A stretch of DNA of 64,000 nucleotides, from assembly GCF_004799445.1 (NCBI RefSeq), contig NZ_SSNA01000025.1:1-64000 (forward strand). Reading direction: 5' to 3'. Every line of letters begins with the position of its first letter. The stretch's first letter is position 1. Made by a program: the position numbers and the translations under genes. The notes under the pieces are model-generated. The model searched no databases. It was not told where the DNA came from and was given only the letters and a program-made list of their open reading frames with translations. The DNA comes from Bradyrhizobium sp. GTDB lineage: Bacteria; Pseudomonadota; Alphaproteobacteria; Rhizobiales; Xanthobacteraceae. Below are positions 2,660 to 42,801 of this stretch, in pieces.

Positions 2660-2878
2660 TTTTCCGCGCCCGGGGCCCGCGCTTTCATCGTTAACGCTAA
2701 CGCGTTTGCCCTCGCACAAGCCGGCCTTGCCACTGTTTTTCTCCGTGAGAAGCGGCCCGGAGCCGAAAAGTCACGCCCTGAAGGACGTGCGGCGGTCATG
2801 CCTGCGCGATCAAGGGGCTGGCGCGGGTCTTGCTGAAATGCCGTACGGGCCGAACTTCACCACAGAGGGTGTCTCACT

Positions 2879-3964: not shown

Positions 3965-3980
3965 GCGTAATGGTGCCCGG

Positions 3981-5198: not shown

Positions 5199-6550
5199 CA
5201 GGGCTGCGCGCGATTGTCGGCGGTCGCCGGCTCCGACATCAATCGAAAACGCGCGATGTAGTGCAGACCAAAAACGCCGACCAAAAACGTGAACCAGATG
5301 GGGTCGGCGCGATCCAGCAAGAAGCTCTCCATCGAAGACAGATAGATTCCGAACAGCCATATCCGAAGAAACAGCTTCGCCAGCGGATCGTCATTGCCGG
5401 ATCGTGTCGCCACGGAGAAATTCCGCAGCGGCGCAATGACGAAAATCGCAACGATCAACGCCAGACCCGGAATTCCCATGGTCAGGGCGTTGTCGAGGTA
5501 TCCGTTGTGACTGTGGGCGGCAGTAATGGCCCACTCGATCTGGTCGTCTTGAACCAGGTTCTGGATCGAGTCGGTTCCCCAAAACGCGGCGAAGCCGTAG
5601 CCGAGCCAGGGATGGAGACCGAGCGACGATATCGCGAATTCCCAGATATCGGTGCGGCCGGTGAAGGTGGTGTCCAACGGCAATAATTTGACCAGGGCGG
5701 CGAGGCGCTCGCTGAAAACCGAACCGACCGTCAGCAGATTCAAACCGAGCAGCGGCAGGAAAACCAGGCAGGCGCGAAATGCGAAGCTTTCGACCGCCAC
5801 GACCAGAATGCTGAGCAGCAAAGCCAAGGCGCAAAGCGCTATCGCGCTCTTTCCGCCGGCCATGATCAAAAACAGCCCGGAAAGACATGCGATCGCAACG
5901 CCGGGAATGATCGCTCGCCTGCCCGCCAGATAAATTCCGACGAAGACCAGCATGGCCATGATCGGTGCAGCGACGTTCTTGTGCCCGAACGGACCGCGCC
6001 AATCGCCGGCGAGATGGGGTTCGAGCGTGTCGCGCGCGGTATGTATCGACAGCGACGGCGCCAGCATCACGCCGAGGTAACACAGGGCCAGGAAGATCAG
6101 CGCCGCGGCGCTCAACCAGAGATCCAGTTCCTCCTGGGTGTCGGGCAGCAGCAGCAGGCATGCGGCCATCGCCAGAACACTGCAAGTCAGGATCACGCGC
6201 TGAAACGACAATCCGAAGTCGTGCGAGAAAACGGTGTTGATGCAGATCCAGCAACACAGCACCATGAACATTGGCGTCATCAGGCTGCGGAGGGCGCGCG
6301 CATGCCGGAACACGGTCAGCGCCAGGGCTGCAACGGAAAATATTCCGAGCGTGATGTAGGTCGAAGCCAGCTTGCCCCGGTCGAGATCGGCGACACCGGG
6401 GTCGCTGAGGTCGGGGAACGGCCGGAGTGATATCCAAATGAGCAGGACCGTCGCGACAAAGGCCACGCAGCGCGCCACGTGCAACACATCGAGATACCCG
6501 AAGATGCGAGCGATGGCCGGCAATTGCGGAAATGACAGCTGCTTGTTCAC
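5195..6550 (-). CDS. O-antigen ligase / ExoQ-like polysaccharide polymerase
   Basis: 451-aa polytopic membrane protein with about 11-12 helices. The large periplasmic loop contains the family pattern 'FTGRTDIWEFAISS' followed by 'HPWLGYGFAAFWG', typical of the Wzy_C/O-antigen-ligase family that includes ExoQ. In an exo locus with a flippase and an ExoP-like co-polymerase, the natural role is polymerising lipid-linked repeat units on the periplasmic side (inference from context). It is transcribed convergently to the SGNH hydrolase, with stop codons overlapping. Confidence 0.9.
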   Translation of the reverse strand: MNKQLSFPQLPAIARIFGYLDVLHVARCVAFVATVLLIWISLRPFPDLSDPGVADLDRGKLASTYITLGIFSVAALALTVFRHARALRSLMTPMFMVLCCWICINTVFSHDFGLSFQRVILTCSVLAMAACLLLLPDTQEELDLWLSAAALIFLALCYLGVMLAPSLSIHTARDTLEPHLAGDWRGPFGHKNVAAPIMAMLVFVGIYLAGRRAIIPGVAIACLSGLFLIMAGGKSAIALCALALLLSILVVAVESFAFRACLVFLPLLGLNLLTVGSVFSERLAALVKLLPLDTTFTGRTDIWEFAISSLGLHPWLGYGFAAFWGTDSIQNLVQDDQIEWAITAAHSHNGYLDNALTMGIPGLALIVAIFVIAPLRNFSVATRSGNDDPLAKLFLRIWLFGIYLSSMESFLLDRADPIWFTFLVGVFGLHYIARFRLMSEPATADNRAQPC

Positions 6551-12838: not shown

Positions 12839-14283
12839 TAGGACAAGCCAGCATCAACCTGTTCGCCAATATCCTCTCCGCGCTGCTGGGGCTATTGAGC
12901 GTCTTCATCTTCACGAGGCTTTTTTCACCTCATGATTATGGCATCTATCTGCTCGGCGTCGGATTCGCTTCCGTGGTCAGCACCTTTCTGGCCGGATGGT
13001 TTCGCAATCTGATTCTGAGCAGGCACGCTCGAAATGATGGTAGCGATGTTCGGGGCCTCGTTCTCTCCGGGTATCTTGTCTGCTGTCTCACCGCCCCTGC
13101 CGCATACGAATTGGGCCGTCTGGTCGGGTTGGACGCCATCGCCGCAGTGGCGGCGGTGCTGCTCGCGGTCGCGGTCGGCCTGTTTGAATTGACCCAGGAT
13201 CTGGTTCGCGCGCGGCTTCGGGCCATCACGGCGATGAAGGCCACGCTGGTTCGCGCCGTATCCGCGGTTTGCCTGGGCGTTTCGGTTGCGATCTTCGCCC
13301 CTCACGGATTCCTGCTGCTGGTATCGTCAGCGCTGGCCTGCCTGCTTGCGGTGCTGGTCCAGTCACGCGCTGCCTGGCGGGGCACGATCGTCAAATTTGA
13401 CGGCGCCGGTCTGCTGGCCGCGGCCAAGCAGGGCCTGCCGCTGACATTGTCGCTCACCTTGCTCGCCATCTCCAGCGTTACCGATCGTTTCGTGATCGCC
13501 AACCTCATAGGCTCCGCAGACACTGGCAGATACATCGCGGGTCTCGACCTCGTCCGGCAAACTCTCATGATGCCGGCGATGAGCGTCGCCGCCGCGTTTT
13601 TCCCGCTCGCGATAAAGATCCATGCCAATCAGGGGCGCGCTGCCGTGCGTTCGCATCTTGGCGAGTGCGTGGAGCTGCTGCTCAGCATTACGCTGCCGGC
13701 ATGTCTTGGATTCGCCGTCATTTCCCTCCACATCGCCAACGTCGTTCTGGGCGCCGACTTTCGCGAGATGGCCGCGCAAACGATGCCGATCCTGGCCGTC
13801 GCCGTGATTTTCCAGATCCTGACACAGCAGTACCTGCATGCCAGCTTTTTGCTGTCGGGACGAAATTCGTTCTATCTGATCAATACCGCGTCGATCATCG
13901 CAGCCAATGTGATCCTGTCGTACGCATTCGTCAGCCAATACGGCACCATGGGTGCGGCATGGGCACGGCTCGGCGCCGATGTTCTGGGATTTTTCTGCGC
14001 GCTGATCCTCAGCCGCCGGGCCTTCCCAATTCCGATGCCGCCCGGCCGATTGGCACTGACGATGATCGCCGGATTGATCATGGCGCTGACGGTGATCACG
14101 ATCGACACGAGCCTGCACGTCTCGGACCTGGTCGCGTGCATTGTCCTGGTCGGCGCCGGCCTGGTCAGCTACCTGGCGGCGTGCTGGCTGTTCGACATCT
14201 CCTACACGCGCAGGCGGCTGAACGTCTGCCTGGCGTTCTTCCGGACCAGATTTGCAAACATCGGCACCGGATCGGCAACCTGA
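12832..14283 (+). CDS. Wzx/ExoT-like oligosaccharide flippase
   Basis: 483-aa MATE/PST-type polysaccharide transporter with about 12-14 helices. It starts 'MLIGQASINLFANILSALLG', followed by the typical 'FTRLFSPHDYGIYLLG'. It flips undecaprenyl-linked repeat units to the periplasm. ATG 12832 was chosen because it overlaps the DUF6492 stop (12836-12838) and gives the canonical N-terminus. The ORF-track start at 12517 is inside the upstream gene. Confidence 0.9.
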   Translation: MLIGQASINLFANILSALLGLLSVFIFTRLFSPHDYGIYLLGVGFASVVSTFLAGWFRNLILSRHARNDGSDVRGLVLSGYLVCCLTAPAAYELGRLVGLDAIAAVAAVLLAVAVGLFELTQDLVRARLRAITAMKATLVRAVSAVCLGVSVAIFAPHGFLLLVSSALACLLAVLVQSRAAWRGTIVKFDGAGLLAAAKQGLPLTLSLTLLAISSVTDRFVIANLIGSADTGRYIAGLDLVRQTLMMPAMSVAAAFFPLAIKIHANQGRAAVRSHLGECVELLLSITLPACLGFAVISLHIANVVLGADFREMAAQTMPILAVAVIFQILTQQYLHASFLLSGRNSFYLINTASIIAANVILSYAFVSQYGTMGAAWARLGADVLGFFCALILSRRAFPIPMPPGRLALTMIAGLIMALTVITIDTSLHVSDLVACIVLVGAGLVSYLAACWLFDISYTRRRLNVCLAFFRTRFANIGTGSAT

Positions 14284-14688
14284 TGAACGCAGCCTGGCCC
14301 CAAACCGAAGCGAGAGGCAGCCACGGGCTGGCGCGGCATCTGCGCACCGGTTGCATCCCGCTGCGCAATTTAGCCGCGAACGTCGATAGCCGCCGGGTGC
14401 GCGCGCTCAACGGTCAGCCAACGCGCCTCGACGAGACGCCAACCGATAACAAATCGTTAATTTCCCGAAGCAGCGAGGCTCGCAATGGGCCGGGCAACCC
14501 TGGCAGAGAGACGGCCGGGCGCGGGCGCTTAAACGCTTTTTTTGCCTTTTCCGTGAATAGTCCCTCAGTGAGTATGGTTAATTTTTCCTGTTGCGTTGGT
14601 TCTGCGCCCAAGCCCTGCGCGCGTAGCGTGACCCGAAGAGTAGCCCCTCAGCCGACGCGTTCGGCCATTCGAATGGAAGCTGGGGCCC
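14284..14688. promoter_or_regulatory. Non-coding region upstream of exoP-like gene
   Basis: 405 bp with no credible gene. The ORFs listed here are shadows with unlikely composition. It holds AT-richer blocks (near 14445-14465 and 14530-14590) that could carry the promoter of the exoP-like gene. A perfect 12-bp palindrome CCATTCGAATGG (14665-14676) sits just before the ribosome-binding site of that gene, where a bound repressor would block translation or elongation. No known operator matched. Confidence 0.5.
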
Positions 14689-16959
14689 ATGCTGTCGTAT
14701 GACCAACCCATCAATCGCTCCAACCCGGAGACCGGGCAAAAGCCCGCGCCAGCGCCTGCCGGCTTCAGCGTGCTGCAGCTAACCCGGTTGCTGTGGCAGC
14801 GGAAGACCGCGATCGCGATGGCCGGGCTGATCTGCGCCTGTGCTGCCGTCGGCATCGGCAAGAGCCTGACGCCAAAATATCTGGCGACCGCGCAGCTCTA
14901 TGTCGATCCCCGGGAGCTGCAACTGGTCGACCGCGAACTCACGCCGCGCTCCCAGGACGTTTCCGGCCTGGCGATGGTGGTGGAAAGCCAGGCTCGCCTG
15001 ATCACTTCGAACAACGTCCTGCTGCAGGTGGTCCAGGATGCCCATCTCGACAAGGATCCGGAGTTCGGCGGCAATTCCGGCGGCGTCACGGCGGCGTTGC
15101 TCGGCCTGTTCGGGCTCGACGCGCGTTCCGCCGGCGAGGCCAAGGTCGGCCAGATGGCGGCGCTGGAAGCCTTGAACCGTCACATCAGCGTGAAGAAGAC
15201 CGATCGTACCTTCATCGTCGATATCGATGTCTGGTCGTATGACCCGGCGAAGGCGGCGATGCTCGCCAATGCGATTTCCAACGCCTATCTGGCGGAATCC
15301 AGAAATTCGCAAGCCACCGCCGCGCGACGGGCGACGACCGATCTGTCGGGCCGGCTCAAGGAATTGCAGGAGCGGCTTCGCACCGCGGAGAACGCGCTTG
15401 CGGTCTACAAGGCACAGAACAATTTCGTCGGCACCCAGGATACGCTGATCAGCGATCAGCAGCTTTCGGCGAGCAACCAGCGGCTTGCCGCCGCACGGGC
15501 GATGACGCTCGACGCGCAGGCGAAATACGACCAGATCGAGGCCAGCCGCCGCGCGTCGACCGATGCCGGCGCCATTCCGGAGGCCCTTCAGTCTCCCACC
15601 ATCGCCAATTTGCGTTCGCAATACGCCGAAGCCCGCAAGCGCTATGCCGAACTGGCCAGCGAATTGGGGCCGCTGCATCCCTCGCTGCGTCAGATGGAAA
15701 AGCAGGTCGAAGACCTGCGCCGCACCGTCAACGAGGAAGTCGAGCGCTTTGCCCAGTCGGCGAAAAATGACCTGACCCGCGCCCGCGACTACGAGGCCTC
15801 GCTGAACAAGTCGCTTGAGGCGCAAAAGCGCCAGAGCGTCCAGCTCAGCCAGGCTTCGGTGCGGCTCCGCGAGCTTGAGCGCGACGTCGAAGCCAGCCGC
15901 GACGTCTATCAATCGTTCCTCAAGCGCTCGCGCGAGACCGAGGAACAGGAAAGCCTCAACACCTCGAGCGCGCGCATCATCGGCGAAGCCTCCGTGCCGC
16001 AACGACGCGCATTCCCGCCCGCCATGAGCCTGCTCGCGATCGTCGGTTTCGTGCTTGGTGCGCTCGCCGCGGCGACCTGGTTTGTCGCGGCCGACCAGCT
16101 GTCATTCGACACTGCCGAAACCAGCCCGAAGATACCGGCGTTGCCGGAGCCGAAGGCCGAAGCCCCGCCGTCGCAGCCGCCGGAGCGACAGCCTGCCCCG
16201 GCCACGCTGGTCGAGAAGCCGCGGATCGCACGGCTGCTGGAATCCGACGTGATGCGGACGCTGGGTGGAATCCTGGCCATCGGCGGTATTCCCGACGTCA
16301 CGCGGATGGGCTGGCCGACGGTGCGGGCGGGCTTTCCATTGACGACCTTCCTCAACGCCCTGCGCGAGATGCGGGAGACGCTGGCCAAGCGTTCCGCCGC
16401 GAACGTGGCCCCGGTGCTGGGCGTGATCGGCGCGGGTGCCAGCCAGGATCGTACCATCGCCGCGCTGAACGTCGCGCTGGCGGCCGCCCGCGACGGCGCC
16501 AACGTGCTGCTGATCGACGCCGATCCCGCGACGCGCACGCTTTCGAACAAGGTAGCCGGGCCGGGCAAGCGCGAGGCCAGCCGCCTCGGCTGGCTCAGCA
16601 TGGGCACCAGGGCTTCGCGCGCCATCAAGACCGCGAACGGCATTTCGATCCTGCCCTCGATCGGGCCCGCCGGAACCAGCAACGCCATCCGCAAGGCGAT
16701 TGCGCAGGCCCGCTCAGCGGGTGGCTACGATCTTGTGATTTTCGACGGGCCTGCGATGCCCTGGAGCGCGGACGATCGCAAGCTGCTCGATGCCGCGGAC
16801 GGCCTGGCCGCGATCCTGCCGGCCAGTCTCGACATCAACGATTGCATGGAAGACATCATCGCCGCCCTCGGCGGCACCGAGCGCAAGCTGATCGGTGTCA
16901 TCCTCAACGAACTTCATCCAGCGGCCAAGGTCTCGCAACGGGACAAACAATATGCTTGA
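14689..16959 (+). CDS. exoP: ExoP-like polysaccharide co-polymerase with degenerate kinase domain
   Basis: 756-aa inner-membrane polysaccharide co-polymerase (Wzz/GumC-ExoP family) that sets chain length and links the polymerase to export. An N-terminal Wzz domain with TM1 (about 41-58) is followed by a long periplasmic coiled-coil (about 190-420), TM2 (about 445-463) and a Pro-rich linker. A cytoplasmic BY-kinase-like domain comes last. In that domain the Walker A' ('VLLIDADPAT') and Walker B ('DLVIFDGPA') are present. The Walker A loop, however, reads 'GVIGAGASQDRTIA' with no GKS/T, and no Tyr cluster exists at the C-terminus. Good RBS ('gaagctgggg'). Confidence 0.9.
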   Translation: MLSYDQPINRSNPETGQKPAPAPAGFSVLQLTRLLWQRKTAIAMAGLICACAAVGIGKSLTPKYLATAQLYVDPRELQLVDRELTPRSQDVSGLAMVVESQARLITSNNVLLQVVQDAHLDKDPEFGGNSGGVTAALLGLFGLDARSAGEAKVGQMAALEALNRHISVKKTDRTFIVDIDVWSYDPAKAAMLANAISNAYLAESRNSQATAARRATTDLSGRLKELQERLRTAENALAVYKAQNNFVGTQDTLISDQQLSASNQRLAAARAMTLDAQAKYDQIEASRRASTDAGAIPEALQSPTIANLRSQYAEARKRYAELASELGPLHPSLRQMEKQVEDLRRTVNEEVERFAQSAKNDLTRARDYEASLNKSLEAQKRQSVQLSQASVRLRELERDVEASRDVYQSFLKRSRETEEQESLNTSSARIIGEASVPQRRAFPPAMSLLAIVGFVLGALAAATWFVAADQLSFDTAETSPKIPALPEPKAEAPPSQPPERQPAPATLVEKPRIARLLESDVMRTLGGILAIGGIPDVTRMGWPTVRAGFPLTTFLNALREMRETLAKRSAANVAPVLGVIGAGASQDRTIAALNVALAAARDGANVLLIDADPATRTLSNKVAGPGKREASRLGWLSMGTRASRAIKTANGISILPSIGPAGTSNAIRKAIAQARSAGGYDLVIFDGPAMPWSADDRKLLDAADGLAAILPASLDINDCMEDIIAALGGTERKLIGVILNELHPAAKVSQRDKQYA

Positions 16960-30176: not shown

Positions 30177-31097
30177 CTACATCGCCTTATAGGAATCGGG
30201 ATCGGGTGAATCGGAAGGCCTGGCAAACGCCTTCTTCAGTTCCGCACCGATTGGCACGTTAAGATTCAATCCCTTGGGCGGGATTTTCTGCATGAACCAC
30301 TTGTCGTACAGCCTTTGGCCTTCCGGGCTCTGGTAGAGCGCCGCGGTGGCGCCGTCGACCACCTTCTTGAACGCCGGATCGTCCTTGCGAAGCATAATGC
30401 CGCAGGGCTCCGGCCTGGAGAACGCGTCGGTGGAAATGATGTAGGCATCCGGATCCTTCGATCCGGTGACGAAGGCAGCCAGCAGGATATCGTCCATCAC
30501 AAATGCCACCGCCCGGTCGGTCTCGACCATCAGGAACGCCTCGGCGTGGTCCTTGGCCGGGAGGATGTTGATACCAAGATTGCGGACGGCATTCGTTTCG
30601 GTGAGCTGCTTGATGTTGGTGGTGCCGGAGGTCGCGGTTACCGATTTGCCCCTGAGGTCCTCGACCGTGTTGAGCTTATTGGATTTCTTCGAGACGAAGC
30701 GGGTCGCGGTCAGAAAGTGGGTGTTGGCGAAGGCAACCTGCTTCAGACGGTCAGGGTTGTTGGTGGTCGATCCGCATTCGAGGTCGATGGTGCCATTGGC
30801 GAGCAACGGGATGCGGGTCGACGACGTCACCGGATTGAGTGCGACCGCGAGCCTGTCAAGCTTGAGCTCCTTCTGCACGGCGTCGACGATTTTGTAACAG
30901 ATGTCCATCGCAAAACCGATCGGCTTCTGGTTATCGTCCAGGTAGGAAAATGGAATCGACGAATCGCGATAGCCGATCGTGATCGTGCCGGTTTCCTTGA
31001 TTTTCTTCAGCGTCCCGGTCAGCTCTTCGGCCTTGGCCTGTGCGGCACAAATAGCTGCCGCGGCGACCGCAAGGCCGATCATGCGCCGTCGCATCAT
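30177..31097 (-). CDS. gltI: Glutamate/aspartate-type ABC substrate-binding protein, copy 2
   Basis: 306-aa paralogue of the neighbouring gene, aligning along its whole length with only scattered substitutions (for example 'FVSKKSNKLNTVEDLRGKSV' here against 'SSKLNSIEDL' in copy 1). The start at 31097 (ATGATG) follows 'gaggagagggcg', and a signal peptide is present. The intergenic DNA upstream also resembles that upstream of copy 1, so the duplicated unit includes the leader. One change, 'EPCGIM' for 'EPYGIM', introduces an extra Cys in the mature protein. Confidence 0.94.
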   Translation of the reverse strand: MMRRRMIGLAVAAAAICAAQAKAEELTGTLKKIKETGTITIGYRDSSIPFSYLDDNQKPIGFAMDICYKIVDAVQKELKLDRLAVALNPVTSSTRIPLLANGTIDLECGSTTNNPDRLKQVAFANTHFLTATRFVSKKSNKLNTVEDLRGKSVTATSGTTNIKQLTETNAVRNLGINILPAKDHAEAFLMVETDRAVAFVMDDILLAAFVTGSKDPDAYIISTDAFSRPEPCGIMLRKDDPAFKKVVDGATAALYQSPEGQRLYDKWFMQKIPPKGLNLNVPIGAELKKAFARPSDSPDPDSYKAM

Positions 31098-31231
31098 TCG
31101 CCCTCTCCTCGCCTGGATGACTGCGGCCACGCTTGCATCGCTCAATCCGGAAGGACAATGCGGCCCGCCCGACCCGATCCTGACGCAAGGACTGCGCACA
31201 AGGACCGGGCCGTCACCTCAACCGATTAACC

Positions 31232-32149
31232 CTACATCGCCTTGTAGGAATCGGGGTCGGGGGAATCCGACGGCTTGGCGAATTCATGCTTCAGCTCCGC
31301 GCTGATCGGCACGTTGAGATTCAACCCCTTGGGCGGAATCTTCTGCATGAACCACTTTTCGTACACTTTCGCGCCCTCCGGGCTCTGGTAAAGCGCCGCA
31401 GTGGCGGCATCGACCACCTTCTTGAAGGCGACATCGTCCTTGCGCACCATGATGCCGTAGGGCTCGGGCTTCGAAAATGCATCAGTTGAGATGACATAGG
31501 CCCCCGGCTCCTTCGATCCGGCCACGAGGCTTGCCAGCAGGATATCGTCCATCACGAACGCCACCGCGCGATCGGTCTCGACCATCAGGAATGACTCGGC
31601 ATGATCCTTGGCCGGAATGATGTTGATGCCGAGATTGCGGGCGGCGTTGGCCTCGTTGAGCTGCTTGATGTTGGTGGTGCCCGAGGTCGAGACCACCGAT
31701 TTGCCCTTGAGGTCGTCGATCGATTTGATGTTGCTGGATTTCTTCGAAACGAAGCGGCTTGCGGTCAGGAAATGAGTATTGGTGAACCAGACCTGTTTCT
31801 GTCGTTCGGCATTATTGGTGGTCGAACCGCATTCGAGGTCGACGGTGCCATTGGCCATCAGCGGGATACGTGTCGCCGAGGTGACCGGATTGAGCTTGAC
31901 CTCAAGCTTGTCGAGCTTGAGCTCCTTCTTCACGGCATCCACAATCTTGTAGCAAATGTCCATGGCATAGCCGACCGGCTTCTGGCTGTCGTCCAGGTAG
32001 GAAAACGGAATCGACGAGTCGCGATAACCCAGGGTGATCGCTCCGGTCTCCTTGATGTTCTTCAGCGTTCCCGTGAGTTCCTCGGCATTCGCCTGGCTCC
32101 CACAGAACGCAACGGCGAGCGCGTAGCCCAAGATATTCATGCGTTTCAT
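31232..32149 (-). CDS. gltI: Glutamate/aspartate-type ABC substrate-binding protein, copy 3
   Basis: 305-aa paralogue, somewhat more divergent than copies 1 and 2 (for example 'ERQKQVWFTNTHFLTASRF' and 'SSNIKSIDDLKGKSVVST'). ATG 32149 overlaps the stop of the alpha/beta hydrolase gene as ATGA, so translation is coupled to that gene. The signal peptide ends at 'GSQANAEE'. It is the promoter-proximal binding protein of the three. The ORF-track start at 32473 reads antisense through the hydrolase and is rejected. Confidence 0.94.
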   Translation of the reverse strand: MKRMNILGYALAVAFCGSQANAEELTGTLKNIKETGAITLGYRDSSIPFSYLDDSQKPVGYAMDICYKIVDAVKKELKLDKLEVKLNPVTSATRIPLMANGTVDLECGSTTNNAERQKQVWFTNTHFLTASRFVSKKSSNIKSIDDLKGKSVVSTSGTTNIKQLNEANAARNLGINIIPAKDHAESFLMVETDRAVAFVMDDILLASLVAGSKEPGAYVISTDAFSKPEPYGIMVRKDDVAFKKVVDAATAALYQSPEGAKVYEKWFMQKIPPKGLNLNVPISAELKHEFAKPSDSPDPDSYKAM

Positions 32150-33024
32150 AAGTGTTCTCCTTGTTTGTCGGATATGGATTGTTCGAGGATCTGATTGAGG
32201 ACCGGCGCGATGTAGCGACGAAACTGTTCTGGATTCTCGCTCATCGGAAAATGACCGAGTTGCTCCATGATGGTGAGGCTGGCGCCCTTGATTGCCGCGG
32301 CCGTCCGCCGCGTGTCGTCTGGGGTGCAGGAAAAATCGTACTCGCCGGTAAGCAGGTAAAGCGGACAGGCGCCGGTGTCGATGCCCTCGACGCGGCCACG
32401 CAGATCGCCATCGACCCGGTAGAAGTACAGATCGCCCTTGAACACACCCGGCCCGCTTTGCATGTAGCACCACAGGGTTTCGCGGCGCGAAGCGTCAGGA
32501 CTTTGCGGCGCGATCAAACCCGATACCAGCGCCGCGCAGACCTCGCCGCCGTGAACGTCGGGACGGTGCAGCCAGCTGGTATCGTACCACGGCGCCTGAA
32601 AATCGGCGGCTTCCAGACCGATCAAGGCATGAAATTCCCTGGCGTGCTCGATCGCAAGGTTGAGAACGATACGGCCGCCGATCGAACAACCCATCACGAC
32701 GGGCTTCTCCAGTGCGAGCGCCTGGCAGAAGGCGCGGATAGTCTGCGTGTAACGCGCGGTCGTAAGGCAATATTCCTCGCCGGTCCAGCTTGCTGGTGGA
32801 TTCGATTTGCCGTGCCATGGCATATCGAAGGCAATGATTCGAAATTTCTTAGCCAACGCTTCGTCTGCAAGCAGATGCCGCCACTGGCGTCCATCCGACC
32901 CCGCCGTGTGCAGGCAGACCAGCGGGACGCCGGCGCCGTTTTCCTCGAAATAGATGCGATGCGGATCGCCATCGATCTCGACATGAACGTAGCGGCCGAT
33001 CATCGGCTCGATCATGCCGGTCAT
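32146..33024 (-). CDS. Alpha/beta hydrolase
   Basis: 292-aa cytoplasmic alpha/beta hydrolase. The oxyanion region is 'VPLVCLHTAGSDGRQW', the nucleophile elbow 'VVMGCSIGGRIVLN' (Gly-Cys-Ser-Ile-Gly), the acid is likely in 'LLTGEYDFSCTPDD', and the His in 'EQLGHFPMSENPEQF'. ATG 33024 overlaps the stop of the preceding 138-aa gene (ATGA). Coupled to binding proteins of an amino-acid importer and to an M20 peptidase, it probably hydrolyses an ester or amide of an imported amino acid derivative (inference). Confidence 0.88.
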   Translation of the reverse strand: MTGMIEPMIGRYVHVEIDGDPHRIYFEENGAGVPLVCLHTAGSDGRQWRHLLADEALAKKFRIIAFDMPWHGKSNPPASWTGEEYCLTTARYTQTIRAFCQALALEKPVVMGCSIGGRIVLNLAIEHAREFHALIGLEAADFQAPWYDTSWLHRPDVHGGEVCAALVSGLIAPQSPDASRRETLWCYMQSGPGVFKGDLYFYRVDGDLRGRVEGIDTGACPLYLLTGEYDFSCTPDDTRRTAAAIKGASLTIMEQLGHFPMSENPEQFRRYIAPVLNQILEQSISDKQGEHL

Positions 33025-34959: not shown

Positions 34960-35119
34960 CTGTTCTCTTTTTTGTTCCACTCGGCGTCCGGATTTTGCCA
35001 GGTTACCGGGATACGCCGCCGGCCGGAAGGGCGAGGATTTGGCTTTGCTAAAGCCTGCCGGAATGCAACAATTTCCGCCATAGCCCGGCGCTCGACCGGG
35101 TGTCTCGCGGGAGAGCTCC

Positions 35120-35746
35120 TTGAAAACCATCCTTCGCGTCTCGGCCGTCTGCATGCTGTTTGCCGGCTCCGCCCTGGCCCTGACCGGCGAGCGGATGGCG
35201 GAAATTCCGCTCGAAAAAATGTCGGCGGCCCAGCGCAGCATTGCCGACGCCCTCATCTCCGGACCGAGAAAGCGGATGAGTGGTCCGTTCAATGCCTGGC
35301 TGCGCAGCCCGGAGCTGGCGGATCGACTGCAAAAAGTGAGCGAGTATGTCAGGTTCAACACCTCGCTCGACAAGCGGGTCAACGAGATGGCGATCCTGAT
35401 GACCGCGCAGGCCTGGGGCTCGCAATATGAGTGGTACGCGCATGCGCCGCTGGCGCTCGAGGCCGGCCTCGATCCCGCCACCATCGCCGCCATCGGCTCC
35501 GGGCGAAAGCCCGACAACATGAAGGATGACGAGGCTGTTGCCTGGGAGTTCACCACGCAGCTGCGGCGCGATCACGGCGTCGACGATGCGATCTATGCGC
35601 GGGCGCTGAAGAAATTCGGCGAGCAAGGCATTGTGGACCTGGTCGCGGTGAACGGATATTACGATGTCGTCTCGATGACGCTCAACGTCGCGCGTGTGGC
35701 GCCGCCGGCCGACGCCGAATTGCCGTTCAAGCAGGCCGGCCGCTAG
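35120..35746 (+). CDS. Exported carboxymuconolactone decarboxylase-like protein
   Basis: 208-aa AhpD/CMD-fold protein with a signal peptide ('ILRVSAVCMLFAGSALAL'). The CMD core is 'KRVNEMAILMTAQAWGSQYEWYAHA' (read in parts), with the usual His but no CxxC pair, so peroxidase chemistry of the AhpD type is unlikely. The 3' end of this gene is duplicated 5.6 kb downstream (41210-41396). Divergent from the M20 gene. In an uninterrupted chromosome it would probably lie next to the LLM oxidoreductase gene now found at 41422. Confidence 0.88.
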   Translation: MKTILRVSAVCMLFAGSALALTGERMAEIPLEKMSAAQRSIADALISGPRKRMSGPFNAWLRSPELADRLQKVSEYVRFNTSLDKRVNEMAILMTAQAWGSQYEWYAHAPLALEAGLDPATIAAIGSGRKPDNMKDDEAVAWEFTTQLRRDHGVDDAIYARALKKFGEQGIVDLVAVNGYYDVVSMTLNVARVAPPADAELPFKQAGR

Positions 35747-35787
35747 TCTTTCGCCTTGTAATGGCCGCGCGACAGCCATGCCGCGCG
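35601..35787. repeat. Left copy of 187-bp direct repeat flanking CHAT island
   Basis: The last 146 bp of the decarboxylase gene plus about 40 bp downstream. It aligns without gaps to 41210-41396 at a constant offset of 5609 bp. By hand I count about 19 mismatches, mostly at third codon positions. It ends at the stop codon of the last gene of the island. Confidence 0.9.
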
Positions 35788-35788
35788 G

Positions 35789-36555
35789 CTACCACCCCAA
35801 AATGCTTTTGAGGCCGGTGTAAATCGATCCACCTGCCGTTACCACCACGCCCACTAACGGTCCGGCGGTGGTAAGCAGACGCTGGATGGAGCGTGCGCGC
35901 CGGCGGAGTTGCTCCTCGCCGACATGCTGACCAAGCAGTCCCGCGATCTTGTAAGCGACCGCGTTAGGCTTTCCGCCCTCAGTCATTGTTTTCGGTAATA
36001 CATCGAAGATCAATAAACCAAAAATGTTGCCGGTCTCGAACGCAAGGGCGATACTCGCGATATATTCGATAACTTCACGCCATTCGACCAGGGCCCCGGG
36101 ACGATCGGGACGTTGTCGTTAAATCCGGTTACCGTGAGCATGCATGTTACGGCTATTCCGGCCGTCACGACACCGACCAGGAAGGCGCCGCGAAATCCGA
36201 TTTTCTGTCGTGCATAGAGTGCCAGACCGAACGGCAACGGGATTATGACCGAGGCCAGCCGCAGATAGAGCGGGGCAACATCCAGTTTGATCGTGACGAC
36301 AATGTGAGCCGCTACCAGGAGGACGACAGGCGCCAACACATATGCAATCGTGTGTTTGGTAAAGTAACGGAACGGGAAGCGGATTCGCGCCAAGCTGGCA
36401 TCAACCCGGTCAAGTTCGCGCTGCAATCCGTCAAGTTCAGAAACGATTTCCTGGATTTCAAGGATAACCGGGCGCACAACTCGTAAATCGCGCGAGCAGT
36501 GCTTGCACACGATGGCTTCATACTTGATGGTTTCGGCGCAAAACGGGCATTCCAT
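35789..36555 (-). pseudogene. Zinc-ribbon membrane protein, probable one-base frameshift
   Basis: The N-terminal ORF (36555 to 36010) has a zinc ribbon 'CPFCAETIKYEAIVCKHC', a short coiled coil and three hydrophobic helices, then ends in an implausible tail after 'NDNVPIVPGP'. Shifting frame at the GGGGCCC run (36091-36097) gives 'LVEWREVIEYIASIALAFE', which reads without stop into the 74-aa ORF ending 'GGSIYTGLKSILGW'. The intact protein would be about 255 aa. Either a real inactivation or a missing C in the assembly. It is the last gene of the CHAT cassette; its start shares one base with the upstream stop. Confidence 0.75.
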
Positions 36556-36758
36556 CAGGATGATCGACGTTTCTTGTCGCGCTTGAGCCTTTCGATCTCA
36601 CCCTTGGCCCGTAGCAATTCCTCCTGCAGAGCATCGCGCTTCCGGGTCAAATCGTCGCGCTCGGTGATTAGCGATTTCGGTACGGTAATGTCGCGGGCAC
36701 AAGAGTCGCAAACCAGCGCCTCCAAGGCATTGTCGTTCAAACAAAACAGACAAATCAT
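36555..36758 (-). CDS. Small zinc-ribbon coiled-coil protein, 67 aa
   Basis: A mini-protein with one zinc ribbon 'CLFCLNDNALEALVCDSC' followed by a heptad-rich helix 'LTRKRDALQEELLRAKGEIE' and a Lys/Arg tail. No membrane segment. The ribbon is clearly related to the one in the downstream gene, so the two may have arisen by duplication or may heterodimerise through the coiled coils. Translationally coupled downstream (TGATG) and 10 nt after the preceding exported protein gene. Confidence 0.8.
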   Translation of the reverse strand: MICLFCLNDNALEALVCDSCARDITVPKSLITERDDLTRKRDALQEELLRAKGEIERLKRDKKRRSS

Positions 36759-36768
36759 CGGTACTCCC

Positions 36769-37221
36769 TCAGGGCGTAACCTTCAGGAAAAAAATCGTAC
36801 TTCCAACGCGCCCGTCCGAATCCTTAATGTCGACTCGCAACATATGGTCGCCCGCCGGCAGCTGGGTATCCGGGATATCAATCCCCGTCGCCTGCACAAA
36901 AGGCCTGACGCGGTCAGTCAAATCAACGCTCGGTGTTTTCAGATAAGTGAATTTGATGGAGTCCGAGTCGATTTTTGCACCCCCATACGATACAAACTTG
37001 AGTTGAAAATGCATTGGCGAATGACTCGGTTCGCTGTCGGCGATAAACTCGATTTTCGGACCCCGGGTGATCCCTCGTCGATCGGCTGCAACAGCTCCCT
37101 TTAGCGGCGGCAATTTTGATTCTTCCTCCGTGATCAAGACCACGGCGGCGTAAGCAGGAAGTGCTACCGGTATCACACTCGCAACACAAATTAACAAAAA
37201 TCCCAAACGGCGAGCCCTCAC
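36769..37221 (-). CDS. Exported hypothetical protein in CHAT cassette, 150 aa
   Basis: Unrecognised. The start is GTG 37221, chosen because 'ataaggagagttatc' precedes it; this puts the signal peptide 'MRARRLGFLLICVASVIPV' ending 'LPAYA' at the very N-terminus. The mature part is beta-rich with 'GPKIEFIADSEPSHSPMHF', 'KFTYLKTP' and 'LPAGDHMLRVDIKDSDGRVG', resembling an Ig-like or carboxypeptidase-regulatory-type sandwich. It is probably periplasmic. Located 34 nt after the CHAT gene and 10 nt before the small zinc-ribbon gene, it may be an adaptor or substrate of the CHAT protein (inference). Confidence 0.7.
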   Translation of the reverse strand: MRARRLGFLLICVASVIPVALPAYAAVVLITEEESKLPPLKGAVAADRRGITRGPKIEFIADSEPSHSPMHFQLKFVSYGGAKIDSDSIKFTYLKTPSVDLTDRVRPFVQATGIDIPDTQLPAGDHMLRVDIKDSDGRVGSTIFFLKVTP

Positions 37222-37255
37222 GATAACTCTCCTTATTACTTGAAACATAAAAGCG

Positions 37256-40200
37256 TTAACGCGTGCCGCCGTCGCCAATGATGGAATACGGCGCCCAAAA
37301 CAAGGGATGAGCATACGCGAATTCGGTCTTGCCGTTACCATCGATGTAGCCTGGTCCGTCCGCCAGCGCCATCATGGCCTGCCGTAGGGCCTCGCCGCGC
37401 GCCAGTTTCGGATCATCGGCCTGGCGCTTGAACAGATTCGTGACGAGCGCCCGCGCCGATTGTGAATGGACTGACCAGTTGGTAACGAGCACCGCTCGCG
37501 TGCCCGCATAAAAAAATGCAAGGCCGAGACCCGAGGCTGCCTCCGCGCCGGCGCCGGCGCCCGCTCCGGTGTTGCAGGCCGACAGCACCACCCAATCGGC
37601 ATCGAGCTTCAAAGCGAGGATTTCCTCCATGGTGAGCAGTCCGTCTCCCTCAACCCCAGCGACCGATGGCGCCGACAGCGCCAGTGCCGGCTGTATCAGC
37701 CCGCTAAGTTCGCCGGGCACGAGACCATGCGTGGCAAAGGCCACGACCTTGATCCGCGACAGGTCCATGGTCTTAACGACATCCTCGTTGGCATTCTTTC
37801 CCAGTTTAAGAACCTTCGATGGGTCCGCCCGCAAGGCCACGGCAATCGACTTTAGTTCGTCGGCGGTATCCGGAAGCCGCGGCAGCATGGCAAGTTCGGC
37901 GCTATCGATTCCCTCAAGCTTCGGACTTGACCGGCGCTTGAGCGGCATCCCGCGCGTCGCGGCCAAACCGGCGTCCGCAACCATGATGGCGGTTTCCGCA
38001 TCCGCAGCTTCGGCTGCTTGTTCGGCACTGAACAATGGATCGCCGAAAGCAATCAACTCGCTACGTCCCGGCTTGCCCGGTGGCAACTGGCGCAAGGCGC
38101 GCAGCGCCGCTGAGGATGGCACCGTCGTGACGGCGTACTTACGCGCCAGCCACGGCACTGCACGATAGCTCGCAAACAACGGATCGTCGTTCGCGTCGAT
38201 TTTGGCTGGCGCGGTCGGCAGCAGCGACAGCGGCAACAGACCGAGCGCACCGTTGGTAACGACGATCAGGTTTTTTGCTTTCTTCCAACCACTCTCGACC
38301 GGCTTCAGGAGTGAACTGTATAACTCGTAGCCGAGCGCAACATCGAAGGCCGGGATATCGGAGATCATTGCCGCATTGGGCTCGAGCGCTTCGCGGAGCC
38401 TAAGCACCTTGCTCTCGATTTCTCTGCGCGTGGCCGGAATCGCGGCGAAGGCCACCTCGCCGTCCATCGGCACTGCCCAAACAAAACTCTCGTCTTGGCC
38501 AAGATAAATCGAAACAAGCGCCTCATCCGCGTTCAAAACTTTTCGAATGTCACTGACGGAGGGCGGTTTGGGATGAATCAATTCCGAATAGGCCGGAAAC
38601 CGGCTTTCGATTTTCTCTCGCGCCGCCGCGCGCTGATCGCGGAGTCCGTCGATCCGGTGGCGGATGGATCGCAGGTCATCGTTATTGCGCTCTTGGGGCG
38701 GAAGCGCCAATGCGCTGTTAAGCGAATCCAGCTGTGCGCCGATTTGCTTCTGAAGGTCTTGTTCCTGTCGAGCCAACTCCGCCAGTTCCGGATTATTCGT
38801 GGACGCTCTGGCGGCAGAGCCGGCAATCGCATTTTGAACGGACTGCCCCCGGATCAAATCGGCGAGCCGCAGGGCATCTGCGGCAGCGCCTGTAGCATCT
38901 TGTTTGGTCTTTGCGGCCGATCGCGCCAGCACCGAGAGGTAGGATTCGATGACAATTCGGGCATAATTGTTCCGCGCTGCGGCACCGGAGCTGTCTTCGT
39001 CAACGCTGGCCGTCAAGCCGGCCGCGATAGCAGGAACAGCGGCACGAAACTCCTCGACAGCCTCGCTGTCGTGGCCCGCTGCGGCGAGACCCACTCCCAC
39101 CATGCCTCGCGCAACTGCATAGTCGAAATGGCTTTCGCCAACGCGATCCTTCAATCGCCGCGCCATCGCCTTCGCTTCCGTCAGCCCGGTAGCGGGATGG
39201 CCGGCCCTGTACAGCGCGTATATTCGCGACGGGTTAGACAAGAGATCGTCCCGACGTGCCTTTTCCCAGTTCGAAATCTGCTGCTCAAGTTCGCCGTACA
39301 CTTTGGCGGCTTCGTCCCAGTGCCCCTGCAGGCCCAAAATTGCTCCGAGTTCACTGAGATTGGAGGCGAACGCCAGCGAGTCCTTCGATGCTCCGATGGC
39401 AAGATAGATTTCGATCGCCGCGCGGGTGAGCTTTTCTGCCTCGGCGTAGCGGCCTTCTTCGATCAAAATTGTGGAAAGATAAGGTATGGTCCGGGTCGTT
39501 GTCAGATTGTACTTGCCGACCGAACTTAGGCGGTTCAGCAGTGCCTGTCTTGCGTCGGCCTCCCCTTCGGCAAACCGCCCTTGGCGCGCCTTCACACGCC
39601 CGCCGGATGCGATCAGATTATCGCGAGCGGTTTCGAGATTGCTCAGGAACGTCGCAGATACCGCTCCTGCGAGGGTGCTAATCAGCTGCTGGCTGAGGTC
39701 ATACGCGATACGATACTCCTCCTCAGCTTCCCGATATTGTCCCCGCGCCTCAAACAGTCGCCCCCGTCCGAAATGGACTTCCCGCACGTAACCGTCGCGA
39801 AACTTGTCGTTTCCCAGAACGGGAAGCTTTCTCTCGATCAGCGCGTCATTTTTTTTCACGTATTCTTCGGCATGAACCAGATCGCCGAGATAGATGTAGA
39901 CTTGGGAGGTAAACCGATAGCAAACAATCAAGCTCAATTCCGTTTCAGGATGATCGTTCTCCTGGGCGATTGTCAGAAAGGACTGAAGCGCGGACTTATT
40001 GTCGCCTGACCACGAATAAAGATATCCTAGTTGGCGTCGAAGCGCCGTTACGTCCACGCCATTTTCGTGTCCGATGGCAATTCCTTCTCGCAGGTCCGCG
40101 ATCGCTTCGGACAACCGACCTAACTCCGACCGGGCGTCGCCGCGACGGAAATAGAAGGCAACCAGCGTACGAGCATCTGCTTTTTCAGGGCGAGTGGCGT

Positions 40201-40399
40201 CAGCCGCGGCTTGTGTCCGGCTGGCGCGCCCGACATCCGGCTTCTGCTGATCCAGGATAGCCGTAATGTCAACAATTGTGCGCGGTGGCGGCGCAAACAT
40301 CGTGGATTCTGCGACAGCAAAGCTTGTCGACGTCAGCCAACAAATCAATCCGGCCGCAAAACCTTTCCTGAAGATGTTGGTTCGCGCTGGTCTGGTCAC
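37256..40399 (-). CDS. Exported TPR-CHAT domain protein (caspase-like)
   Basis: About 1047 aa from GTG 40399, preceded by 'caaaggcatgat'; the ORF-track start is TTG 40453. A signal peptide ends at 'TSTSFAVAES'. TPR-like helical repeats span about 60-480 (for example 'RRGDARSELGRLSEAIADL' and 'GRYAEAEKLTRAAIEIY'). A CHAT peptidase domain (about 650-1040) has the catalytic His in 'VVAFATHGLVPGE' and the Cys about 50 residues later in 'WVVLSACNTGAG'. CHAT domains are clan CD cysteine peptidases; TPRs bind regulators or substrates. The dyad is intact. Export distinguishes it from cytosolic defence CHAT effectors. Confidence 0.92.
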   Translation of the reverse strand: MTRPARTNIFRKGFAAGLICWLTSTSFAVAESTMFAPPPRTIVDITAILDQQKPDVGRASRTQAAADATRPEKADARTLVAFYFRRGDARSELGRLSEAIADLREGIAIGHENGVDVTALRRQLGYLYSWSGDNKSALQSFLTIAQENDHPETELSLIVCYRFTSQVYIYLGDLVHAEEYVKKNDALIERKLPVLGNDKFRDGYVREVHFGRGRLFEARGQYREAEEEYRIAYDLSQQLISTLAGAVSATFLSNLETARDNLIASGGRVKARQGRFAEGEADARQALLNRLSSVGKYNLTTTRTIPYLSTILIEEGRYAEAEKLTRAAIEIYLAIGASKDSLAFASNLSELGAILGLQGHWDEAAKVYGELEQQISNWEKARRDDLLSNPSRIYALYRAGHPATGLTEAKAMARRLKDRVGESHFDYAVARGMVGVGLAAAGHDSEAVEEFRAAVPAIAAGLTASVDEDSSGAAARNNYARIVIESYLSVLARSAAKTKQDATGAAADALRLADLIRGQSVQNAIAGSAARASTNNPELAELARQEQDLQKQIGAQLDSLNSALALPPQERNNDDLRSIRHRIDGLRDQRAAAREKIESRFPAYSELIHPKPPSVSDIRKVLNADEALVSIYLGQDESFVWAVPMDGEVAFAAIPATRREIESKVLRLREALEPNAAMISDIPAFDVALGYELYSSLLKPVESGWKKAKNLIVVTNGALGLLPLSLLPTAPAKIDANDDPLFASYRAVPWLARKYAVTTVPSSAALRALRQLPPGKPGRSELIAFGDPLFSAEQAAEAADAETAIMVADAGLAATRGMPLKRRSSPKLEGIDSAELAMLPRLPDTADELKSIAVALRADPSKVLKLGKNANEDVVKTMDLSRIKVVAFATHGLVPGELSGLIQPALALSAPSVAGVEGDGLLTMEEILALKLDADWVVLSACNTGAGAGAGAEAASGLGLAFFYAGTRAVLVTNWSVHSQSARALVTNLFKRQADDPKLARGEALRQAMMALADGPGYIDGNGKTEFAYAHPLFWAPYSIIGDGGTR

Positions 40400-40508
40400 A
40401 TCATGCCTTTGACTGGCGGACTGACAGTAAGAGCTTCTGAATTGTATTTGCAAATAGTTGAGATCAGGCCCGTCGCGCGAATTGCAATCGCGCGACGGTA
40501 TATCCCCG

Positions 40509-41021
40509 TTACCTTACGGACCCGGCCAATTGCATCGCGAGCCTGTGGTGTCCCTCTGCCGTGAGATGAATATGGTCGGCTTGCAGCATGCCTGGCTGAT
40601 GCATAACCGACTTCATGGTCCCAAGCGCATCAACTACCCTGATGCCGCGACCCGTTAGTTGCTTTTTGATCGTAGCGATATTGGCCCGGGCACCGTCGAC
40701 ACTGCCACCCGTTCTGACGTCGTTAAACGCGCCGATGCCCAGGATAACAACCCTTGTTCCATCCGGGACCGCGCTCGACAGGCGAGCAAGAACTTCGCCG
40801 GTGGTATTACCAGAAACGCCGGCGTTGGTTATATGGGCGCTCGAGCCCTTGGCCCTCAGTATGCTTTCCAGTTGAGCTGGCCATGCTTCCGAGGAACTAA
40901 CGCCGTAGCCCTCTACGTTACTGGCCCCCAGTGCCACAATTTGCGCCGAAGCAACGTTAGTCAGCGGAAGAATTGCGGTAGCGAGCGTCGACGCAAGGAT
41001 CAAGACGTTCCCAAATTTCAT
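40509..41021 (-). CDS. Exported SGNH/GDSL esterase, TesA-like
   Basis: 170-aa SGNH hydrolase with signal peptide 'ILASTLATAILPLTNVASAQ'. The nucleophile Ser is in 'IVALGASNVEGYGV' (GAS in place of the usual GDS), with Gly in 'NAGVSGNTTGE', the block III Asn region in 'VVILGIGAFNDVR' and Asp/His in 'ADHIHLTAEGHH'. It resembles arylesterase/thioesterase I proteins of the periplasm. It is first in the CHAT cassette, 109 nt upstream of the TPR-CHAT gene, with an RBS 'tttggagcc'. Whether it is functionally tied to the CHAT protein or is simply co-transported is unknown. Confidence 0.85.
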   Translation of the reverse strand: MKFGNVLILASTLATAILPLTNVASAQIVALGASNVEGYGVSSSEAWPAQLESILRAKGSSAHITNAGVSGNTTGEVLARLSSAVPDGTRVVILGIGAFNDVRTGGSVDGARANIATIKKQLTGRGIRVVDALGTMKSVMHQPGMLQADHIHLTAEGHHRLAMQLAGSVR

Positions 41022-41209
41022 TTTGGCTCCAAATTTGTTTGCTTAATGCGTTTTCTGGACAACTAATGACGTATCAGTGCATAATGAGCGGCGTCCGTCA
41101 GAGCAAAACGCTCGTCCGTGTTGGCACGGTACGACGAATTTGCACCGATGTCTCTAGTCGACGGTAAGAAATTCGGAGACGACGGCAATAGAAACTGCTG
41201 GAATGGTCA
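41022..41209 (-). promoter_or_regulatory. Putative promoter region of the CHAT cassette
   Basis: The only non-coding stretch upstream of the five-gene minus-strand cassette. It is AT-rich compared with the flanks (around 41035-41090) and carries the GDSL gene RBS. A transcription start must lie here or further right, in the decarboxylase fragment. No known operator is recognised. Confidence 0.4.
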
Positions 41210-41355
41210 GGGCGCTGGAAAAATTCGGTGAAGCGGGCATCATGGACCTGGTCGCGGTGAACGGATACTACGACGTCGTCTCGATGACGCTCAACGTCGC
41301 GCGCGTGGCGCCGCCGGCCGATGCCGAATTGCCGTTCAAGCAGGCCGGCCGCTAG
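41210..41355 (+). pseudogene. 3' fragment of carboxymuconolactone decarboxylase-like gene
   Basis: The fragment reads '..ALEKFGEAGIMDLVAVNG' through '..ADAELPFKQAGR' and a stop, matching the last 48 or so residues of the intact gene at 35120-35746. No start codon with an RBS or N-terminal domain precedes it. Most nucleotide differences are synonymous, so the fragment descends from a functional homologue and was separated from its 5' part rather recently. Confidence 0.9.
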
Positions 41356-41396
41356 TTTTCTGCCCTGTAATGGTCGCGCGACAGCCATGCCGCGCG
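41210..41396. repeat. Right copy of 187-bp direct repeat flanking CHAT island
   Basis: Gapless match to 35601-35787 with about 10% mismatches counted by eye, same orientation. It carries the last codons of a decarboxylase gene, its TAG stop and about 40 bp of the following non-coding DNA, including 'gcgacagccatgccgcgcg'. Directly after it the sequence resumes as normal chromosomal DNA leading into the LLM oxidoreductase gene. Confidence 0.9.
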
Positions 41397-41421
41397 ACAA
41401 TCCATTCAGAGTTACGTTGTC

Positions 41422-42801
41422 ATGAAAAAAGAAATCCGACTCAACGCCTTCGCCATGAACTGCGTCGCGCATCAATCGCCGGGGCTGTGGACCCATCCGC
41501 GCGACCGCACCGCCGACTACAACCGCCTGCCCTACTGGCTCGATCTGGCCAGGACGCTGGAACGCGGACGCTTCGATGGCCTGTTCCTGGCGGACGTGCT
41601 CGGCGTCTACGACGTCTACGGCGGCAGCCCGGATGCGGCGCTGCGCAACGCCGCGCAGACGCCGGCGAACGATCCGTTGCTGCTGATCCCGGTGATGGCT
41701 TCGGTCACCGAAAATCTCGGCTTCGGGGTGACGTCCAATCTGTCCTACGAGCCGCCCTATACATTCGCGCGGCGGATGTCGACGCTCGACCATCTCACCG
41801 AGGGACGGGTCGGCTGGAATGTGGTGACCGGCTATCTCGACAGCGCGGCCAAAGGCGCCGGCAAGGACAAGCAGACCGCGCATGACGACCGTTACGATGT
41901 CGCCGACGAATATATGGAGGTGGTCTACAAGCTCTGGGAAGGAAGCTGGGAAAACGACGCCGCGCTGCGCGATCGCGCACGCGGCATCTTCGCCGACCCC
42001 TCCAAGGTGCATCGCGTCCAGCACCAGGGGAAGAATTACCGGCTCGACGCCATTCATCTCTGCGAACCCTCGCCGCAGCGCACGCCGGTACTGTATCAGG
42101 CCGGCACCTCGCCGCGCGGGCGCCAGTTCGCCGCCGAGCACGCCGAATGCGTCTTCATGTCGGGACCATCGGCCAAAGTGATCGCGCCGCGCGTCGCCGC
42201 CATTCGCGACCTCGCCGCGAAGGCCGGGCGCAATCCGGCGGAAGTCCTGATGTTCAGCATGTTCACCATCATTCTCGGCCGCACCGAGGCCGAGGCCAAA
42301 GCCAAATACGCCGACTATCGCAGCCACGTCAGCGCCGAAGGCGCGCTGACCCTGATGTCCGGCTGGACCGGCGTCGATTTCTCGACCTACGATCTCGACC
42401 AGCAGGTTCGCCACGTCGAAAACGACGCCGGCCGCAGCGCGATGGACAACATCACCCGCGCCGATCCGGACCGGGTCTGGACCGTGCGCGAGGTCGCCCA
42501 GCATGTCGGCATCGGCGGCATCGGGCCGGTTGCGATCGGCACGCCCGCGCAGGTCGCCGACGCGATCGAGGCATGGTTCGACCAGACCGACGTCGACGGC
42601 CTGAACGTACCGTTTGCGATTTCGCCCGGCGATTTCGGGGACATCACCGACATGCTGGTGCCGGAGCTGGTCAAGCGCGGACGTTACAAGGCCGCCTACC
42701 AGCCCGGGACTTTGCGCGAAAAACTGTTCGGCGCCGGCCGCGCCCGGCTCGCCGCGCCGCATCCGGCCGCGCAGTATCGGCCGCGCGCGGCGGCAGAATG
42801 A
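41422..42801 (+). CDS. LLM-class flavin monooxygenase (NtaA/SnaA/DszA family)
   Basis: 459-aa FMN-dependent luciferase-like monooxygenase. Family segments: 'LNAFAMNCVAHQSPGLWTHP', 'LARTLERGRFDGLFLADVLG', 'NLSYEPPYTFARRMSTLDHL', 'GRVGWNVVTGYLDSAA' and 'YQAGTSPRGRQFAAEHAECV'. These two-component enzymes take reduced FMN from a separate reductase and oxidise nitrilotriacetate, sulfur heterocycles or similar xenobiotics. No flavin reductase gene is in the window. ATG 41422 follows the duplicated decarboxylase fragment by 66 bp. Confidence 0.93.
   Translation: MKKEIRLNAFAMNCVAHQSPGLWTHPRDRTADYNRLPYWLDLARTLERGRFDGLFLADVLGVYDVYGGSPDAALRNAAQTPANDPLLLIPVMASVTENLGFGVTSNLSYEPPYTFARRMSTLDHLTEGRVGWNVVTGYLDSAAKGAGKDKQTAHDDRYDVADEYMEVVYKLWEGSWENDAALRDRARGIFADPSKVHRVQHQGKNYRLDAIHLCEPSPQRTPVLYQAGTSPRGRQFAAEHAECVFMSGPSAKVIAPRVAAIRDLAAKAGRNPAEVLMFSMFTIILGRTEAEAKAKYADYRSHVSAEGALTLMSGWTGVDFSTYDLDQQVRHVENDAGRSAMDNITRADPDRVWTVREVAQHVGIGGIGPVAIGTPAQVADAIEAWFDQTDVDGLNVPFAISPGDFGDITDMLVPELVKRGRYKAAYQPGTLREKLFGAGRARLAAPHPAAQYRPRAAAE

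Follow-up and report, generated by a model that had tools for sequence, protein, structure and literature searches.

What holds together a group of minus-strand genes lying between two copies of the same gene end in a Bradyrhizobium genome, and what might such a group do with a putative exported protease? The window, by which we mean the whole 64-kb stretch of DNA analysed here, contains a gapless direct repeat of 187 bp with 90% identity between its copies, far beyond chance, each consisting of the 3′ end of a CMD-family (carboxymuconolactone decarboxylase) gene and its intergenic tail. The repeats bracket a 5.4-kb AT-rich cassette encoding an SGNH hydrolase, a TPR-CHAT protein, a beta-rich protein (BETA) and two zinc-ribbon proteins (ZR67 and ZRTM), all on the minus strand (Table 1). 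An earlier note had described a repeat-bracketed cassette that is more AT-rich than its flanks, and both features were confirmed. At 57.1%, the GC content of the cassette is below that of the remaining window (62.8%) and is the lowest of any 5.4-kb stretch in the 64 kb, and GC3 is 0.56-0.71 for the cassette genes (0.71 for the catalytic half of CHAT) versus 0.77-0.84 for the flanking genes. All five genes that had been named are present, but the ZRTM gene is frameshifted and not intact. Outside the cassette, at 30177-32473, the window also encodes two neighbouring and clearly paralogous periplasmic substrate-binding proteins of the amino-acid type.

Table 1. Positions of the cassette genes, the direct repeats and the flanking genes in the window.
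Feature	Position	Strand	Remark
CMD-family gene (PF02627), complete copy	35120..35746	+	assigned by homology only; its 3′ end forms repeat copy 1
Direct repeat copy 1 (CMD 3′ end and intergenic tail)	35601..35787	+	
ZRTM: zinc ribbon, coiled coil and several predicted TM helices; gene interrupted by a frameshift	35789..36555	-	
ZR67: 67-aa zinc ribbon and coiled coil	36555..36758	-	
BETA: exported beta-sandwich protein of Ig/PKD-like type; its R-x-I-x-R-G-P linker is conserved	36769..37221	-	
Putative exported TPR-CHAT protease (PF12770), His909/Cys960	37256..40453	-	
Exported SGNH/GDSL hydrolase, accessory gene	40509..41021	-	
Direct repeat copy 2 (orphan CMD 3′ end adjoining LLM)	41210..41396	+	
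LLM-family monooxygenase (PF00296), right flank	41422..42801	+	directly after the CMD or M20 gene in relatives

An empty site was found in four relatives (L048, L050, L051 and L058), in which the aligned CMD-LLM adjacency shows CMD directly before LLM in the order M20 peptidase, CMD, LLM and TPP enzyme. In many other relatives CMD is absent as well, and the M20 side is joined straight to LLM. Because the cassette is present at the CMD-LLM spot in none of the 272 genomes of the genus searched, and because relatives with the CMD 3′ end alone exist (10 of these 272), the cassette is an insertion at a variable spot. The junction between M20 and LLM (35100-41421 in the window) varies accordingly, with some relatives lacking both CMD and the cassette and others having CMD only. 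Neither of the two outcomes that the earlier note had named beforehand as refuting, genes that occur only separately or a cassette that sits in all strains with no empty site, was seen.

Its description of the cassette as a discrete mobile unit did not hold, since no integrase or transposase was detected among the five cassette genes, no 11-bp inverted repeat was detected between the cassette ends, none of the 272 genus genomes shares the insertion, and the core genes keep a stable position within clades. On the same grounds, a mobile element was rejected as a general property of these genes. The two repeat copies are closer to each other than to any ortholog and differ at approximately 10% of sites; with regard to which copy is the resident one, the differing sites were split, with a weak lean to copy 2. 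This pattern fits recombination through a related CMD end better than transposition or target-site duplication, and homologous recombination through the end of the CMD gene was probably the route by which the window copy arrived.

The same genome contains a second, intact CHAT-BETA-ZR67-ZRTM operon on contig C174 (locus L005, 4784-9272), which has a Cys-rich N-terminal domain on CHAT and no SGNH gene. In the window, the two ZRTM halves (36010-36555 and 35789-36013) form a single gene of approximately 255 codons that is interrupted by a 1-base frameshift near 36092, and ZRTM is intact in the C174 copy and in relatives. Because the genome is a 241-contig draft, this frameshift is possibly a sequencing error. 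The dN/dS values relative to the closest related locus, L074, were 0.07-0.27, including 0.15 downstream of the ZRTM frameshift. The module is thus under purifying selection, and because dN/dS is low also after the frameshift, any decay is recent. The window copy is probably impaired because its ZRTM gene is frameshifted, leaving the C174 copy as the intact one. Slightly below even odds, we consider that the window copy is a decaying insertion without present function whose working counterpart lies elsewhere, an explanation that is compatible with our main reading of the operon family. The frameshifted ZRTM, the window CHAT without the Cys-rich N-terminal domain and the second intact copy argue for this decay, whereas the integrity of all other genes and dN/dS values well below 1, also past the frameshift, would make it very recent or turn the frameshift into a sequencing error.

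A search of 85,462 species genomes for BETA only, using search patterns outside the linker motif, identified 80 loci, and profile searches of these loci returned TPR-CHAT in 73, ZRTM in 79 and ZR67 in 74. The order is nearly always CHAT-BETA-ZR67-ZRTM, with short gaps or overlapping genes. The core is therefore a stable four-gene operon, and the earlier suggestion of a coherent, non-random gene set was borne out by the recurrence of the partners; the operon family is larger and less mobile than the single mobile cassette first proposed. SGNH (PF13472 at 52.7 bits, cut-off 32.9, with the block I Ser and the DxxH motif present in the sequence) was rejected as a part of the core because it adjoins it in 2 of about 80 loci, namely in the window and in L074, which lies at another chromosomal place.

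The 80 loci, which are phylogenetically non-independent, span Bradyrhizobium, Afipia, Xanthobacteraceae, Magnetospirillum-type bacteria, Mesorhizobium and Burkholderiales. BETA was found in 98 of 272 genomes of the genus (36%) and is rare outside it, with 7 of 199, 10 of 385 and 13 of 399 genomes in samples of the order, class and phylum, respectively, all three of which include genus members. The operon keeps a stable position within each clade. In 12 loci, mostly from Afipia, it adjoins Clp/Lon genes (for example, L080, 6409-11406). The order is clpP-operon-clpX in the 9 loci with both genes in view, with tig upstream and lon usually downstream, and in 3 of the 12 only one side is visible before a contig end. 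This adjacency is restricted to one lineage and hints at a role in proteostasis. Two plasmids also carry BETA, with CHAT beside it in both. One is a Variovorax replicon; the other (L220, NZ_CP126014.1), from Bradyrhizobium japonicum, is conjugative and 641 kb in size, and on it CHAT and BETA, annotated as a CHAT protein and a hypothetical protein, are in opposite orientation.

The CHAT domain of the window protein scored 158 bits against PF12770 (cut-off 24), and its catalytic dyad, reported as intact in the earlier note, is indeed so (His909/Cys960); 71 of the 73 proteins in the alignment retain it. The export of CHAT and BETA likewise agreed with that note, as both have signal peptides, which were read by eye from the sequence; the CHAT signal peptide probably begins at a GTG near 40399. 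From these sequence features, TPR-CHAT is a putative exported, periplasm-facing protease. The window protein lacks the Cys-rich N-terminal domain found in most relatives. Compared to L074, the identity is 76-90% in the catalytic half and just 29-47% in the sensor half. In the CHAT tree, the window protein has no close full-length relative, and its only sister is supported at 0.7. A sequence search of the PDB gave mostly TPR proteins, with no relative of the caspase fold among them. L087 and L137 have a tandem pair of TPR-CHAT genes ahead of BETA.

The protease slot of the operon is filled by either TPR-CHAT or a C14 caspase, together with the same partners. Among the 80 BETA loci, 7 lack CHAT; in 5 of these (L143-L146 and L153), BETA has an exported Peptidase_C14 caspase as its neighbour, and the remaining two (L151 and L152) have neither CHAT nor C14. 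The caspases of L143 and L144 start with the same Cys-rich domain (CRxTVGRPIVxxCMR) as most of the operon CHAT proteins. Further genomes have two to three tandem caspases with BETA-ZR67-ZRTM after them in the same orientation. The combination of one set of partners with interchangeable caspase-fold proteases is the strongest argument available that the partners serve the protease. Among the most distant BETA homologues, several lie near exported caspase-like, trypsin or trypsin-caspase proteins, and a few divergent ones (L214 and L215) have no protease nearby.

Three architectures were observed alongside this exchange. L209 has three tandem C14 caspases ahead of BETA, L181 encodes an exported trypsin-caspase-DUF4384 fusion (2812-5592) near a distant BETA homologue, and in L183 a TPR-C14 caspase (13027-14772) is fused to an Ig-like Glucodextran_B domain. 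We rejected this Glucodextran_B domain as a BETA homologue because the homology is unsupported.

The BETA model is a single Ig/PKD-like sandwich (pLDDT 82.5) for which Foldseek returned generic Ig/PKD/CopC matches only, and no match was found in Pfam, NCBIfam or PADLOC. Between the signal peptide and the sandwich, all 80 of 80 proteins have the motif R-x(1,2)-[ILVM]-x-R-[GAS]-P, and the ten-residue block with the first half of this motif has lower model confidence. Because the TPR-CHAT protease Csx29 of the type III-E CRISPR Craspase cuts Csx30 in a flexible loop (PMC10028731), the Arg-flanked linker is a reasonable candidate for a cleavage site. Taking BETA as the substrate is a guess from the motif, and it could instead be an inhibitor, a chaperone or a targeting subunit. 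ZR67 is paralogous to the ZRTM N-terminus, and its gene overlaps the ZRTM start by 1 nt. The ZRTM model consists of several long helices at a modest pLDDT of 73; Foldseek returned no structural match in the PDB, and family searches in Pfam, NCBIfam and PADLOC returned sub-threshold zinc-ribbon matches only.

We compared the operon with known systems of related composition. As in Craspase, a TPR array is fused to a CHAT domain with a His/Cys dyad and is encoded beside a dedicated small partner; in contrast to Craspase, the window protease is exported, its partner is Ig-like and not Csx30, and the unit includes a zinc-ribbon membrane protein. No Cas7-11/gRAMP, Csx30 or sigma factor gene was found beside the cassette CHAT, the neighbours being SGNH, BETA, ZR67, ZRTM, CMD and LLM. 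HetF is likewise a CHAT-domain putative protease with an envelope-related role, but its CHAT domain lies within the first 555 residues and not after a TPR array (PMC8406250). Orthocaspases and Peptidase_C14 proteins resemble the operon proteases as caspase-fold cysteine proteases, and C14 proteins occupy the operon's protease slot in some genomes; in the parts of a cyanobacterial orthocaspase survey available to us (PMC8283722), we found no description of an operon with Ig-like and zinc-ribbon partners. The cassette CHAT was rejected as a member of the FxSxx-COOH system TPR proteins (NF040586), because the match is confined to the TPR region at 31 bits against a cut-off of 300 and the CHAT half is unmatched. 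A PADLOC search of the cassette proteins returned only a partial BovA match at 15.9 bits for CHAT and a type I specificity subunit at 14.4 bits for ZR67. No family, defence model or open-licence paper describing the operon was found. This agrees with the earlier suggestion of a candidate undescribed system, and the genes form an apparently undescribed operon family for an exported caspase-fold protease.

We therefore propose, with a probability of roughly one half for the explanation as a whole, that the operon is an undescribed, envelope-facing caspase-fold protease module for regulated envelope stress or quality-control proteolysis, which seems the likeliest purpose, and that the window holds an extra, foreign-looking copy of this conserved operon. 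The caspase-fold protease would act in the periplasm, where its TPR half, together with the Cys-rich N-terminal domain in most copies, may sense a cue such as a misfolded or damaged envelope protein. The activated protease might then cut BETA in the Arg-flanked linker, between the signal peptide and the sandwich, and the inner-membrane ZRTM and its soluble paralogue ZR67 could anchor the complex and relay the result to the cytoplasm. Because BETA is present in only 36% of the genus genomes, this would not be a core stress pathway. A more specific and rather doubtful version is a Proteobacterial envelope signalling module in which exported CHAT or C14 cuts the BETA linker, ZRTM signals inward and, in some lineages, the genes lie beside ClpP/ClpX/Lon.

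TPR-CHAT and caspase effectors kill or arrest cells in known immunity systems. An anti-phage or conflict system, in which the exported protease is triggered at the envelope by phage entry or by the effector of a rival and then kills or arrests the cell, would accommodate the patchy distribution (98 of 272 genus genomes), the variable sensor half joined to a conserved catalytic half, the swapped effector proteases, the operon genes on a conjugative plasmid and the precedent of Csx29 as an immune TPR-CHAT protease (PMC10028731). We nevertheless consider such a role unlikely, because PADLOC gave no meaningful match, BETA is present in no phage record, many copies lie in conserved chromosomal neighbourhoods, inspection of a few loci gene by gene showed no defence genes nearby, and its export sets the protease apart from the known TPR-CHAT immune protease. 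Clearly less probable still is a protease for envelope morphogenesis or division with a role like that of HetF at the Anabaena divisome. HetF is located at midcell and interacts with FtsI (PMC8406250), and the module, for its part, is directed to the envelope and in several clades is inherited stably; however, BETA is missing from about two thirds of the genus, which makes it dispensable for division, and apart from one locus type that includes an AsmA-like gene, no cell-wall genes lie beside the operon.

As far as we know, the bacterial proteases of the caspase fold that have been studied best work intracellularly. If our reading of the operon as an envelope-facing protease module is true, caspase-type proteolysis serves the bacterial envelope too, with CHAT and C14 proteases swapped in one slot among fixed partners. 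The operon would also provide a candidate protease-substrate pair with a predicted cleavage site that is directly testable, and it draws attention to two gene families labelled as hypothetical, or only as zinc ribbon, by annotation pipelines.
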